Positions 4,726 to 49,155 of a stretch of 64,000 nt of DNA are shown in pieces (within the stretch, counting starts at the first letter, position 1; each line of letters starts with the position of its first letter). This stretch comes from Peteryoungia algae. GTDB lineage: Bacteria; Pseudomonadota; Alphaproteobacteria; Rhizobiales; Rhizobiaceae. The stretch spans positions 4,296,501 to 4,360,500 of the forward strand of contig NZ_CP128477.1 of assembly GCF_030369675.1 (NCBI RefSeq), in the 5' to 3' direction. The position numbers and the translations under genes are program-made. Under the pieces are notes generated by a model that was not told the DNA's origin, did no database searches, and worked only from the letters and a program-made list of their open reading frames with translations.

Positions 4726-4824
4726 GTGTCTGACCTCTGTTGCATTGACCGGCTCGATGCAACGCGCGTGCGGTCTCGCAGAGGAGGGGTCCGGTCCGGG
4801 CATGGCATCGAGCTTGCTCGATGC
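4726..4824 (-). promoter_or_regulatory. Structured terC leader with competing hairpins
   Basis: In the leftward transcript GCATCGAGC (4824-4816) and GCTCGATGC (4813-4805) form a 9-bp hairpin. A second copy of GCATCGAGC (4760-4752) could compete for the middle arm. That second copy also overlaps a GTTGCAT/ATGCAAC hairpin ending just before the AGAGG ribosome site of terC. The layout resembles a cis-regulatory RNA. TerC genes are often controlled by the yybP-ykoY manganese riboswitch, but its GGGGAGTAGC core is not found here. Confidence 0.45.
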
Positions 4825-5232
4825 GGTCCGACATCACGAGGGTAATCCGTCGTCAGAGGGGCCCGGTCCGCAGAGGCGGAAATGGGGGATCCCGCCGGGA
4901 GTTCAAGCCCTGTGACGAGAAAAAACACAGGACTGCCCCGATCGAGGGCGCGCGCTGATACGCCCGCTCGATACGAGGCCATCATCACTGCCCGTAACGT
5001 CGCGCCTTGTGACGGCACCCGTGCCACTTGCGGCCGAGAACCCGCAGATAAGCCGCATGCAAACCAATGTGGTGCTTCGCCACATCAGGTTTGGCCTGCA
5101 ATCCCGGTTAGGGAGTGACATTGACGGACCCACTCGTCCACAGATGCGGGCCGACAATCAAATCCGAGGTTGACGCCCCTCACTCGCCTCCCCATGATGT
5201 CGCAACTGCAAATGTTGTTTGGGAGGACACTC
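4825..5232. other. Intergenic region between divergent terC and the TAXI transporter
   Basis: About 400 bases with no supportable gene; it must hold the promoters of terC (leftward) and the transporter (rightward). On the leftward strand GGGGCAGT (4942-4935) is followed by a CCTGTG/CACAGG hairpin (about 4932-4910), loosely recalling a metal riboswitch, but the match is too poor to name. Confidence 0.4.
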
Positions 5233-46296: not shown

Positions 46297-47301
46297 ATGA
46301 ACATGCACCTGAACCGCCCCCCTTTGACGATCAGGCTTTGCGGCCCGCGCGGATTCTGCGCTGGTGTCGACCGCGCCATCCAGATCGTCGTTCTGGCTCT
46401 CAAGCGCTACGGCGCGCCGGTTTATGTGCGCCACGAGATCGTCCACAATCGCTACGTCGTCGAAGGTCTGGAAGCCAAAGGTGCCATCTTCGTCGAGGAA
46501 CTCGACGAGATCCCCGCAGAACACCGCCAGCAGCCGGTCGTCTTCTCCGCCCATGGCGTGCCGAAATCCGTGCCGGAAGATGCGGCAAGCCGCAATCTCT
46601 TCTATCTCGACGCCACGTGTCCGCTGGTGTCCAAGGTGCACAAGCAGGCCATGCGCCACCAGCGCCTCGGCCGCCATGTCATCCTGATTGGCCATGACGG
46701 CCATCCGGAAGTCATCGGCACCATGGGACAGCTTCCGGAGGGCTCCGTGTCGCTGGTCGAGACTGTCGAGGAAGCGGATCTTTATCAGCCCGCCGATCCT
46801 GACAATCTCGGCTACGTCACCCAGACCACGCTCTCGGTCGATGACACCGCCGGGGTCATTGCCAGGCTCAAGGCGCGATTCCCGAACCTGACCGCGCCCT
46901 CTGCCGACAGCATCTGCTACGCCACCACCAACCGACAGGAAGCGGTCAAACACGCAGCCCCGGGTTGCGATCTCTTCATTGTCGTCGGCGCACCGAATTC
47001 GTCGAATTCCAAGCGTCTCGTCGAAGTGGCCCTGCGGGCAGGGGCTACCCGCTCTCTGCTGGTGCAGCGCGCCTCCGAAATCGACTGGGCCGATATCGGC
47101 GAGATCCGCACGCTCGGCATTTCCGCCGGCGCCTCCGCCCCGGAGGTGATCGTCGACGAGATCATCGAGGCCTTCCGCGAGCGCTTCGACGCCAATGTGG
47201 AACTGGCGATCACGGCGGAAGAAAACGAGCACTTCCTCGTCAACCGGGAACTGCGCGATGTGGAACTGACCCGCGAGGACATGGCCTGGGTGAATGGCTG
47301 A
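46297..47301 (+). CDS. ispH: 4-hydroxy-3-methylbut-2-enyl diphosphate reductase
   Basis: A 334-residue [4Fe-4S] enzyme catalysing the last step of the MEP pathway, giving IPP and DMAPP. The three cluster cysteines are in [29 protein letters not shown] and [21 protein letters not shown] and the SSNSKRL loop bind substrate. The start MNMHLNRP at 46297 lacks a strong ribosome site and is probably coupled to DUF1304. In relatives thrB and rnhA follow; here an ABC-F gene is in between. Confidence 0.97.
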
Positions 47302-47324
47302 GGCGCTGCAACTGAGCTAGTATC

Positions 47325-47354
47325 TTGCCTTCCACCCCGGCCATCCTGTAGATT
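47325..47354 (+). promoter_or_regulatory. Possible promoter of the ABC-F leader transcript
   Basis: TTGCCT and TAGATT are separated by 18 bp, ending about 33 bases before the leader start. The match is moderate; the assignment leans on its position ahead of the leader frame. Confidence 0.35.
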
Positions 47355-47387
47355 TGTCATTACGGTTTAAAAGAAAGGAGGGATCCC

Positions 47388-47462
47388 GTGCACAGTCATT
47401 ATTTCCGGTTCAACCGGCAACGTGGTCCCGTCCCGGCCCTGCAAATGCGTTTGCAGGGCTGA
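47388..47462 (+). CDS. 24-residue leader peptide ahead of the ABC-F gene
   Basis: A GTG-started frame of 24 codons beginning MHSHYFRF and ending MRLQG. AAAGGAGGG, the best ribosome site in the neighbourhood, lies 5 nt before it, while the ABC-F gene itself has a poor one. It contains Arg-Gln-Arg at codons 10-12, the charged-X-charged pattern known to arrest macrolide-bound ribosomes, then a Pro-Val-Pro. Its last codons lie in RNA arms 1 and 2 of the putative attenuator. Translation in vivo is inferred. Confidence 0.65.
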   Translation: MHSHYFRFNRQRGPVPALQMRLQG

Positions 47463-47554
47463 TCAGAGACCGTTTCTCAGCGACACCTTCTCCTGGTCTG
47501 CCCCTCATGGCCCGCAGCGCCAAGCCGTTCCGGCTCGCGCCCTGCATGTTTTTT
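47436..47554 (+). promoter_or_regulatory. Putative attenuator of the ABC-F gene
   Basis: Arm 1 GCCCTGCAAA (47436-47445) pairs with arm 2 TTTGCAGGGC (47450-47459), a perfect 10-bp hairpin at the end of the leader frame. Arm 3 GCCCTGCA (47539-47546) repeats arm 1, so it can pair with arm 2 instead, and TTTTTT (47549-47554) follows two bases later. An AGCCG-TTC-CGGCT hairpin lies just before arm 3. Mutually exclusive pairs next to a leader frame are the mark of translational attenuation. Confidence 0.6.
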
Positions 47555-47574
47555 AGACCGCAGCGACATCCATT

Positions 47575-47596
47575 GGACAAGGCGAAAGGCCTGTCC
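47575..47596 (+). other. Hairpin just upstream of the ABC-F start
   Basis: GGACA-A-GGC pairs with GCC-TGTCC (one bulged A, loop GAAAG), 32 bases before the ABC-F ATG. It is part of the structured leader. Confidence 0.4.
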
Positions 47597-47628
47597 GGAC
47601 CGTCGCGCGGCAAGACCAGAGAACCATC

Positions 47629-49155
47629 ATGTCCCTGATCAATATCCGTAATCTCGGCGTCACCCTGTCGAGCCCGCTGTTTTCCAACCTCAACCTTGTC
47701 GTCAATGCCGGCGATCGCATCGGCCTTGCCGCCGCCAATGGCCGTGGCAAGTCGACCCTGTTCCGGTGCATCGCCGGTACGCTTGATCCGAGCGAAGGCG
47801 AGATCACCAAGGCGCGCGGTGTGACCATCGGCTATGTCGAGCAGAACGTGCCGCAGCATCTGCTGGATCTCACCTTCTACGACGCTGTGCTGGATGCGCT
47901 TTCGCCCGAACAGGCCGAAAGCGAGAGCTGGCGCGTCGATGTGGTGCTCGGTGAACTCGACGTACCGGTTGAATTCCACCAGCGACCGCTGAAGGCACTG
48001 AGTGGCGGCTGGCAGCGCATGGCGCTGATCGCGCGCGTCTGGGTCACCGAGCCGGACGTGCTTCTGATGGACGAGCCCACCAACCATCTCGACCTCGGCA
48101 AGATCGCTGCCCTCGAGGCGTGGCTGAATGCACTGCCGCGCGACGTGCCGGTGATCCTCGCCAGTCATGATCGCGCCTTTCTCGATGCCGTCACCAACCG
48201 CACCGTCTTCCTGCGCGCCGAGCAGTCGCCAGTCTTCGCGCTTGCCTATTCGCGGGCGCGTTCGGCGCTGGAGGACGCGGACGCGGCCGATGCGCGTCGC
48301 TACGAGCGTGACATGAAGACGGCAGATCAGTTGCGCAAGCAGGCCGCCAAGCTCAACAATATCGGCATCAATTCCGGCAGCGACCTTTTGGTGGTGAAGA
48401 CCAAGCAACTGCGCGAGCGGGCCGAAAGGCTCGAGGATGCAGCCAAACCGGCTCATCTCGAACGCTCGGCCGGTGCCATCAGGCTTGCCAATCGCGGTAC
48501 CCATGCCAAGGTTCTGGTGACGCTGGACGATGCGGAAGTGCTTGCTCCCGATGGCGCCGCGTTGTTTCGCACCGGCAAGCAGTTCATTTGCCAGGGCGAC
48601 AGGATTGTCCTGCTCGGCGCCAATGGCGTCGGCAAGACCCGCCTCATCGCCATGCTGCGCAAGGCGATCGACATGCCCGAGATCGCCCAGGACGGCATCA
48701 AGGCGACGCCATCGCTGGTGCTGGGCTACGGCGACCAGGCGCTTGCCGATCTCCGCGACAGCGACACGCCGATGCAGGCGATCATCCACCGCTTCGATAT
48801 CGGCGACCAGCGGGCACGGGCGCTCTTGGCCGGTGCGGGCATGAGCATCGATATGCAGGCGCGCCCGATCGGTCGCCTGTCCGGCGGCCAGAAGGCGCGG
48901 CTCGGCATGCTGGTGCTGAGGCTTGCGGAGCCGAATTTTTTCCTGCTCGACGAACCGACCAACCACCTCGATATCGAGGGGCAGGAGGTGCTGGAGAGCG
49001 AGCTGATGCAGCATCAGGCGAGCTGTCTGCTGGTCTCGCACGACCGCAGTTTCGTCCGCGCCATCGGCAACCGCTTCTGGCAGATCGAACGAAAGCGCCT
49101 GATCGAAGTCGAGGGGCCGGAAGATTTCTTTGCCGCAGCCGCACTGGCAAGGTAG
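47629..49155 (+). CDS. ABC-F family ATPase
   Basis: A 508-residue protein of two ABC domains on one chain and no membrane segments. Domain 1: AANGRGKST, LSGGWQRMAL, LLMDEPTNHLD; domain 2: GANGVGKTR, LSGGQKARLG, FLLDEPTNHLD. A charged interdomain linker (about residues 215-290) would reach into the ribosome. ABC-F proteins act on stalled or antibiotic-bound ribosomes; some give resistance, others are housekeeping factors, and I cannot place this one. It interrupts the usual ispH-thrB neighbourhood and has its own long leader. Confidence 0.93.
   Translation: MSLINIRNLGVTLSSPLFSNLNLVVNAGDRIGLAAANGRGKSTLFRCIAGTLDPSEGEITKARGVTIGYVEQNVPQHLLDLTFYDAVLDALSPEQAESESWRVDVVLGELDVPVEFHQRPLKALSGGWQRMALIARVWVTEPDVLLMDEPTNHLDLGKIAALEAWLNALPRDVPVILASHDRAFLDAVTNRTVFLRAEQSPVFALAYSRARSALEDADAADARRYERDMKTADQLRKQAAKLNNIGINSGSDLLVVKTKQLRERAERLEDAAKPAHLERSAGAIRLANRGTHAKVLVTLDDAEVLAPDGAALFRTGKQFICQGDRIVLLGANGVGKTRLIAMLRKAIDMPEIAQDGIKATPSLVLGYGDQALADLRDSDTPMQAIIHRFDIGDQRARALLAGAGMSIDMQARPIGRLSGGQKARLGMLVLRLAEPNFFLLDEPTNHLDIEGQEVLESELMQHQASCLLVSHDRSFVRAIGNRFWQIERKRLIEVEGPEDFFAAAALAR

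Follow-up and report, generated by a model that had tools for sequence, protein, structure and literature searches.

In the genome of Peteryoungia algae, an ABC-F ATPase gene is preceded by a small leader peptide gene and several RNA arms, which together probably constitute an erm-like, cis-acting, ribosome-mediated translational attenuator dedicated to one alphaproteobacterial ABC-F family. Comparison of related loci establishes, at the level of sequence, selection on the leader codons, a conserved Gly-Pro step, the first hairpin (P1, arm 1 with arm 2), pairing of arm 2x with arm 3, and linkage of these elements to the ABC-F gene. The idea of a ribosome-mediated switch in front of this gene had been put forward in an earlier note. 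It is supported here by coding selection, covarying arms and occurrence of leader and gene in the same genomes, but the termination step, the RQR trigger and the direction of the switch that came with it did not hold up.

Organization of the locus

The features discussed below are listed in Table 1, with coordinates referring to the window, i.e. the whole 64,000-nucleotide stretch of contig NZ_CP128477.1 that was analyzed. The ABC-F gene is flanked by ispH (which ends at 47301) on one side and by a homoserine kinase gene on the other, and the latter is followed by an rnhA-like ORF. The elements described in the earlier note, namely a leader with a strong ribosome site, a perfect 10-bp hairpin, a repeated third arm and a T-run, are all present in the sequence. 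The hairpin P1 (47436-47445/47450-47459) lies over the last leader codons, RQRGP occurs in the leader peptide, and a second copy of GCCCTGCA is found at 47539-47546, with TTTTTT at 47549-47554. A 271-nt region around the leader folded better than 200 of 200 dinucleotide shuffles (z -4.47).

Table 1. Features of the leader and the ABC-F gene, in window coordinates
Feature	Coordinates	Strand	Basis or remark
Promoter-like TTGCCT-18-TAGATT, 5' of leader (weak assignment)	47325..47354	+	motif score in 124 loci
Leader ribosome-binding site, AAGGAGGG	47375..47382	+	GGAGG region kept in leader alignment
Leader ORF, VHSHYFRFNRQRGPVPALQMRLQG plus stop	47388..47462	+	GTG start, 24 codons plus TGA; selection on coding
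Near-invariant Gly13-Pro14 codons, proposed stall site	47424..47429	+	GP in 130/133 leaders
Arm 1 of hairpin P1, GCCCUGCAAA	47436..47445	+	covariation count, fold
Arm 2 of hairpin P1, UUUGCAGGGC	47450..47459	+	covariation count, fold
Arm 2x, GGGCUGAUCAG, 3' edge of arm 2; partner of arm 3 in proposed ON state	47456..47466	+	covariation count
Arm 3, CUGGUCUGCCC; proposed partner arm 2x (ON) or arm 4 (OFF)	47493..47503	+	covariation count, fold
Local hairpin, 3-nt gap and T-run; possible extra terminator in window and closest relatives	47514..47554	+	not conserved
Arm 4, GGCAAGACCAG, just 5' of and at ABC-F ribosome site	47609..47619	+	pairing count, fold
ABC-F ATPase, 508 aa, proposed controlled gene	47629..49155	+	ORF, profile and structure comparisons

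The Rfam 15 covariance models gave no match to 47300-47700 at E up to 1. The sole Rfam match above the gathering score in the window was terC RNA (RF03067, 56.6 bits, 4819-4874, minus strand). Opposite the ABC-F gene, the minus strand contains an open frame of 543 aa (47410-49041), which is probably a by-product of codon bias.

Joint occurrence of the leader and the ABC-F gene

We built a covariance model, designated R1, from 24 leaders; its structure includes the first hairpin only. Searches were carried out in samples of genomes from the same family (297), order (347) and class (337); filters were tightened for searches of more than 40 genomes. In the family sample, R1 matched 57 of the 297 genomes, the ABC-F protein also matched 57 of them, and the two genome sets were identical (three of the ABC-F matches, in G143, G239 and G278, were partial). 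The ABC-F gene was downstream of each of the 57 family leaders. Because R1 and ABC-F match the same genomes, the leader with its hairpin is, as judged from this joint occurrence, a real and conserved element dedicated to the ABC-F gene. One of the 57 genomes had a second, weak R1 match (L155, 25.7 bits, 78 nt) with other ORFs and no ABC-F downstream, which was taken as chance.

R1 matches were detected in 53 of the 347 genomes of the order sample. Full-length matches occurred in 52, of which 14 belonged to the same family and 38 were outside it; the remaining match, in G403, spanned only 26 nt. The class sample yielded matches in 11 of 337 genomes (10 besides our own). All full-length matches from the order and class samples were retrieved, and the same ABC-F was found downstream in every locus. 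Apart from L155, no leader was found before genes other than ABC-F in the family, order and class samples.

Within the genus, ABC-F orthologs were detected in 10 of 63 genomes, including our own. Each of the nine for which upstream sequence was available had the leader and hairpin; the tenth (L015) has 11 nt upstream. A search of a contig collection gave 80 ABC-F loci. The leader count covers the 20 of these 80 with at least 50% identity, and both leader and hairpin were present in all 19 of the 20 that had upstream sequence, one of which (L035) carries Gly-Ser in place of Gly-Pro. Such an occurrence of leader and hairpin is far above what chance would give. The flanking genes vary between genomes, and the leader and ABC-F remain together. 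The ABC-F gene was also found in 12 records of a plasmid collection, six of them typed as conjugative, and psymA of Sinorhizobium meliloti M162, a plasmid record, carries it along with the leader. At one locus (L198, about 585-2018) the leader is intact and about 1.4 kb of other DNA, which looks like an insertion, separates a stretch resembling the ribosome site from the ABC-F match.

Leader peptide

There were 142 loci with an ABC-F match. After removal of L015 and L034 (no upstream sequence), nine loci missed by the leader-finding pattern and seven identical ones, 124 loci remained. The open leader frame in these 124 is present by construction, as they were found by a frame and motif search, and the pattern required G[P/S]..[A/P][L/W] or one RH variant, so that the occurrence of Gly-Pro in 123 of 124 leaders is a biased count. 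Because the pattern favors Gly-Pro, the nine missed leaders were read separately, by eye; all nine had an open frame and seven of them had Gly-Pro, which gives 130 of 133 in total. The exceptions were L035 (GS), L186 (QP) and L144. All four proline codons are used for Pro14 (CCC 65, CCT 39, CCG 12, CCA 7), therefore it is the amino acid that is conserved and not the bases.

Codons were compared in 75 nearest-neighbor pairs, over the ten codons 5' of the Ala codon with which arm 1 starts. Single-change codons were synonymous in 79 and non-synonymous in 70 cases, compared with 29% synonymous under a simple transition-weighted null (the pairs are not independent). On this comparison the leader evolves as coding sequence and is predicted to be translated. 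Other positions of the peptide are less constant: Gly is preceded by Arg in 86 of 124 leaders and by Phe, His, Tyr, Cys or Ile in the others, an Arg is found three residues before Gly in 104, and Val follows RxRGP in 88. Residues past Ala-Leu vary freely, and the Microvirga leaders extend beyond the hairpin. In two Devosia loci (L026, L027), the leader ends within the P1 loop (CTT TAG) and the hairpin is retained; it seems that the peptide beyond Ala-Leu-Gln-Leu is not needed. In seven loci (L182, L184-L186, L207, L209 and L210), Ala-Pro is found in place of Ala-Leu, with the hairpin arms altered to match.

A promoter-like motif upstream of the leader reached a score of 9 or higher in 49 of 124 loci, compared with 80 of 1240 single-base shuffles, and in 47 of these 49 loci the end of the -10 box was located 30-44 nt before the leader start. 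A consensus promoter scan of the window stretch did not include TTGCCT-18-TAGATT in its output.

Pairing and covariation of the arms

To compare the arms, 100 chosen leaders were aligned to R1. In P1, 98.8% of cells were paired and 5 of 10 pairs had changes on both sides; double-changed cells numbered 37 compared with 8.1 in shuffles, in an alignment that was fitted to P1 and hence leans its way. The helix formed by arm 2x and arm 3 is absent from the R1 structure. Its cells were paired in 94.0% of cases versus 31-60% when the arms were slid, and both-side changes were observed in 5 of 10 pairs and 19 cells (shuffled, 2.9 and 10.6). None of 500 shuffles reached its covariation score, although these shuffles ignore kinship and the count is thus not a probability. 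The shuffles still paired 92.6% of cells; therefore, conservation alone accounts for much of the arm 2x:arm 3 pairing. Pairings 1:2 and 2:3 are mutually exclusive: the 3' part of arm 2 belongs to both helices, and each of them has double changes (kinship uncorrected).

The pairing of arm 3 with arm 4 was tested on 98 of these loci, using an alignment of the ribosome site that was built independently of arm 3. Over all 98 loci, 68.4% of cells were paired compared with 66.8% in shuffles, with 6 of 500 shuffles as high. When only the 56 loci with at least 66% identity were considered, 86.0% of cells were paired (25-44% when slid). This pairing is due to conservation and not to covariation, as 209 of 500 shuffles were equally high. 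Taken as a group, the other 42 loci, with less than 66% identity, showed no signal (44.3% versus 45.2% shuffled and 38-44% slid). Tested locus by locus against dinucleotide shuffles at p 0.05, arm 2x:arm 3 pairing was detected in 90 and arm 3:arm 4 pairing in 60 of 124 loci. In 105 of 124 loci, the locus' own arm 3 fitted its own ribosome site better than did the mean of arm 3s differing by at least 2 nt. In addition, three loci showed concerted changes of arms 2x, 3 and 4, respectively: L149 (GGGCGGAA, AUUCUGCC and GGCAGAAU), L193 (GGGCUGAUCG, CGAUCUGCCC and CAGAUCG) and L187 (UGAUCAA, UUGAUCA and GAUCAA); several other distant loci did not. Across the loci, arm 3 is located 51-196 nt before the ABC-F start. 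Taken from these alignments, a pairing of arm 3 with arm 4 over the ABC-F ribosome site is supported but weaker.

The earlier note had proposed that the leader and arms be looked for upstream of orthologous ABC-F genes. The leader codons were indeed under coding selection and the arms covaried, whereas the T-run and Arg-x-Arg were not conserved.

Computed folding

For each of the 124 loci, we folded the RNA between the base of arm 1 and ABC-F codon 5. The ribosome site was more closed than in shuffled controls (unpaired 0.295 versus 0.395). With 5 nt of arm 1 masked, its openness changed by +0.068 versus -0.013 in the controls, and the mean number of expected arm 2x:arm 3 pairs rose from 0.76 to 5.17. 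Openness increased by more than 0.05 in 56 of 124 loci compared with 50 of 372 controls; with a margin of 0.02, it went up in 66 and down in 15 of the 124.

The window and its closest relatives (L001, L009-L011) showed no switch at equilibrium, as openness was 0.16-0.17 whether or not arm 1 was masked. In the minimum-energy fold of the window, the 47613-47619 part of arm 4 pairs with 47492-47499. When the mask extended to 47443, the arm 2x that it set free paired with the start of the ABC-F gene (47454-47463 with 47626-47637). The helix of arm 2x and arm 3 formed in the window only in RNA cut at 47530, i.e. before arm 4. Therefore, a switch would here have to depend on the order in which the arms are transcribed.

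The ABC-F protein

None of the curated resistance models among the 25 best was reached by the ABC-F protein (NF000355, 281.3 bits versus a cut-off of 380). Its predicted structure (mean pLDDT 87.8) matched both resistance and housekeeping ABC-Fs, with VmlR2 first, and its best solved relative by sequence was YbiT. The linker between the ATPase domains contains a conserved N-x-G-x-NSGSD motif. Patchy presence within a genus is regarded as a pointer to resistance factors (excerpts of PMC6723617), and the distribution of this gene, which occurs in 10 of 63 same-genus genomes and also on plasmid records, is of that type. As far as such counts of genomes go, this accessory occurrence suits resistance better than housekeeping.

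Proposed mechanism and alternative explanations

The position of a stalled ribosome can be estimated from the usual toeprint distance of 16 nt. A ribosome stopped at RQ(R) has its edge at approximately 47434, before arm 1, and masks none of it. If Gly13 is in the P site, the edge reaches approximately 47440 and 5 of the 10 arm 1 bases are masked, and if Pro14 is in the P site, it reaches 47443 and 8 bases are masked. A ribosome at the leader stop codon covers arm 2. This geometry favors Gly-Pro as the point of action, with a sign opposite to that of the earlier model, in which a halted ribosome was to free arm 1 to trap arm 2: a ribosome held at G(P) would instead open the base of the hairpin and free arm 2. 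A toeprint 16 nt from an initiation codon is described in the vmlR work (excerpts of PMC9226507).

The switch might operate as follows. In the OFF state, P1 would form and the ABC-F ribosome site would be hidden by a helix of arms 3 and 4. In the ON state, the leader ribosome would stall with Gly13 occupying the P site and Pro14 the A site (or with Pro14 in the P site), covering the first 5-8 nt of arm 1, so that the 3' part of arm 2 would be released. The released arm 2 would take arm 3 before arm 4 is made and the ABC-F start would be left open, whereas a ribosome that finishes the leader would sit on arm 2 and the gene would stay off. ABC-F would probably be made only when ribosomes are in trouble. 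In this scheme we infer both the stall itself and the effect of the order of transcription. A drug that targets the ribosome, or a general block at the peptidyl-transferase center, is the probable inducer, and the ABC-F protein may relieve the stall on the leader. More tentatively, it is possible that the Gly-Pro step is a broad sensor of peptidyl-transferase trouble, not of one drug, that the ABC-F releases the ribosome on its own leader, and that the family is an undescribed one.

A transcriptional version of this control appears very unlikely. Here the T-run, together with either the helix of arm 2 and the second GCCCTGCA copy or the hairpin 47514-47545, would stop transcription except when a ribosome stalls in the leader. 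A five-T run is present between arm 3 and the ribosome site in the window, L009, L010 and L011, but in only 13 of 124 loci overall (4 of 9 in the genus), and on this ground T-run termination was rejected as a conserved mechanism. At least six T within 8 nt were likewise found in 13 loci, partly different ones, and a terminator scan of the window stretch found none. Three nucleotides separate the local stem from the T-run. The copy next to TTTTTT, which the earlier note had regarded as the functional partner of arm 2, is placed by the minimum-energy fold of the window in the local hairpin (47539-47545 with 47514-47520). The helix between arm 2 and this copy is missing from that fold and does form, beside part of arm 2x:arm 3, when 47441-47560 is folded alone (47452-47459/47539-47546). 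However, arm 1 is partly masked in this RNA, and masking thus promotes the helix that a stall was supposed to prevent. In favor of termination, known ABC-F genes are often transcriptionally controlled (excerpts of PMC10314930 and PMC12421871), and vmlR joins a terminator with a hairpin that hides the Shine-Dalgarno sequence (excerpts of PMC9226507).

Two further explanations concern the signal. It is unlikely that the leader is a macrolide sensor acting through its Arg-x-Arg (+X+) motif, which in the window is RQR, a pattern that the earlier note had linked to macrolide arrest. +X+ is an established macrolide arrest motif (PMC10314930 and PMC6238534, in excerpts), and Arg/Lys-x-Arg/Lys is found in 82 of 124 leaders including that of the window. 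On the other hand, this is well below the count for Gly-Pro, which is kept without +X+ in 41 of the 124, and RQR was rejected as a conserved trigger; moreover, a stall at RQ(R) would end 5' of arm 1. As XP(X) is listed among erythromycin-dependent motifs (excerpt of PMC6238534), a macrolide could also act at Gly-Pro-Val. An intrinsic arrest at Gly-Pro, independent of drugs, would use the same RNA switch with another trigger; the ABC-F would resolve the pause, and the leader would gauge the capacity of ABC-F or EF-P. We consider this explanation rather doubtful. It agrees with Gly-Pro being the near-invariant feature of the leader, and there are parallels in the SecM arrest sequence, which ends in RAGP (excerpts of PMC12992588), in the action of EttA on the MgtL leader (excerpts of PMC11282234), and in the suppression of msrD induction by ectopic MsrD (excerpts of PMC10314930). 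However, the motif in the present leaders, RxRGP-V, does not contain the arrest core described for such peptides (RAPP, RGPP or RAGP), and the accessory nature of the gene fits resistance over housekeeping. The translational attenuator with its action point at Gly-Pro is the explanation we prefer.

Relationship to known systems

Ribosome-mediated attenuation of ABC-F or erm genes is a known kind of control. The four-arm logic of ermC, in which pairings 1:2 and 3:4 oppose 2:3, would also be that of the proposed switch. In ermC/ErmCL, a ribosome stalled on the leader ORF refolds the RNA and thereby uncovers the ribosome site of the gene under control (excerpts of PMC10219788), as it would in the present element, which also has a leader ORF. 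The two differ in that here the gene encodes an ABC-F and not a methylase, the proposed stall is at Gly-Pro, the hosts are alphaproteobacteria and arm 3 lies 51-196 nt before the start of the controlled gene. The vmlR system of Bacillus subtilis has in common with the switch proposed here an ABC-F gene, a stalled leader ribosome that prevents a first hairpin, a hairpin that hides the Shine-Dalgarno sequence and possibly, in the closest relatives of the window, a terminator. In vmlR, however, the uORF encodes the tripeptide Met-Ile-Asn and control centers on an intrinsic terminator (excerpts of PMC9226507), whereas here the peptide has approximately 20-30 residues, some of them selected, and no conserved terminator is found. 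In the case of MsrDL/msrD, a leader peptide also controls an ABC-F, which can affect its own induction, but MsrDL is MYLIFM, the stall occurs at the stop codon and control works via transcription termination (excerpts of PMC10314930).

With regard to the signal, ApcA, ApdA, ApdP, SecM and CruR resemble the proposed stall in that a short core with Arg precedes the proline or glycine codon at which arrest occurs, in a uORF before the controlled gene. The RAPP/RGPP/RAGP peptides are mostly larger and have localization signals and C-terminal motifs, in contrast to the tiny peptide with RxRGP-V found here; the section text of PMC12992588, from excerpts of which these comparisons are drawn, does not mention ABC-F genes among the groups enriched downstream of their uORFs. 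No paper describing the present leader was found in the open-licence PMC literature, among the matches listed. The term ABC-F was absent from the available text of a Sinorhizobium meliloti ribosome-profiling paper (PMC10117765), and in that of a tetracycline paper (PMC12218461) ABCF occurred only within a reference. Within the open-licence literature and among the matches listed, the alphaproteobacterial family, the Gly-Pro signal and the arm set are new.

If our interpretation is true, the element would represent a family of leader peptides and RNA switches that extends over several families of Alphaproteobacteria and travels with an accessory ABC-F. Its covariance model can be used to find further leaders, and the leader fused to a reporter, together with toeprinting at a single codon pair, would provide a ready assay for what an uncharacterized ABC-F family senses. 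Among the papers examined, the ABC-F attenuators (those of msrD, vmlR, vgaA, vgaL, lmrC and are5sc) are from Gram-positive bacteria. The element reported here would be their Gram-negative counterpart, widespread among bacteria that live in soil or with plants and relying on a different stall signal.
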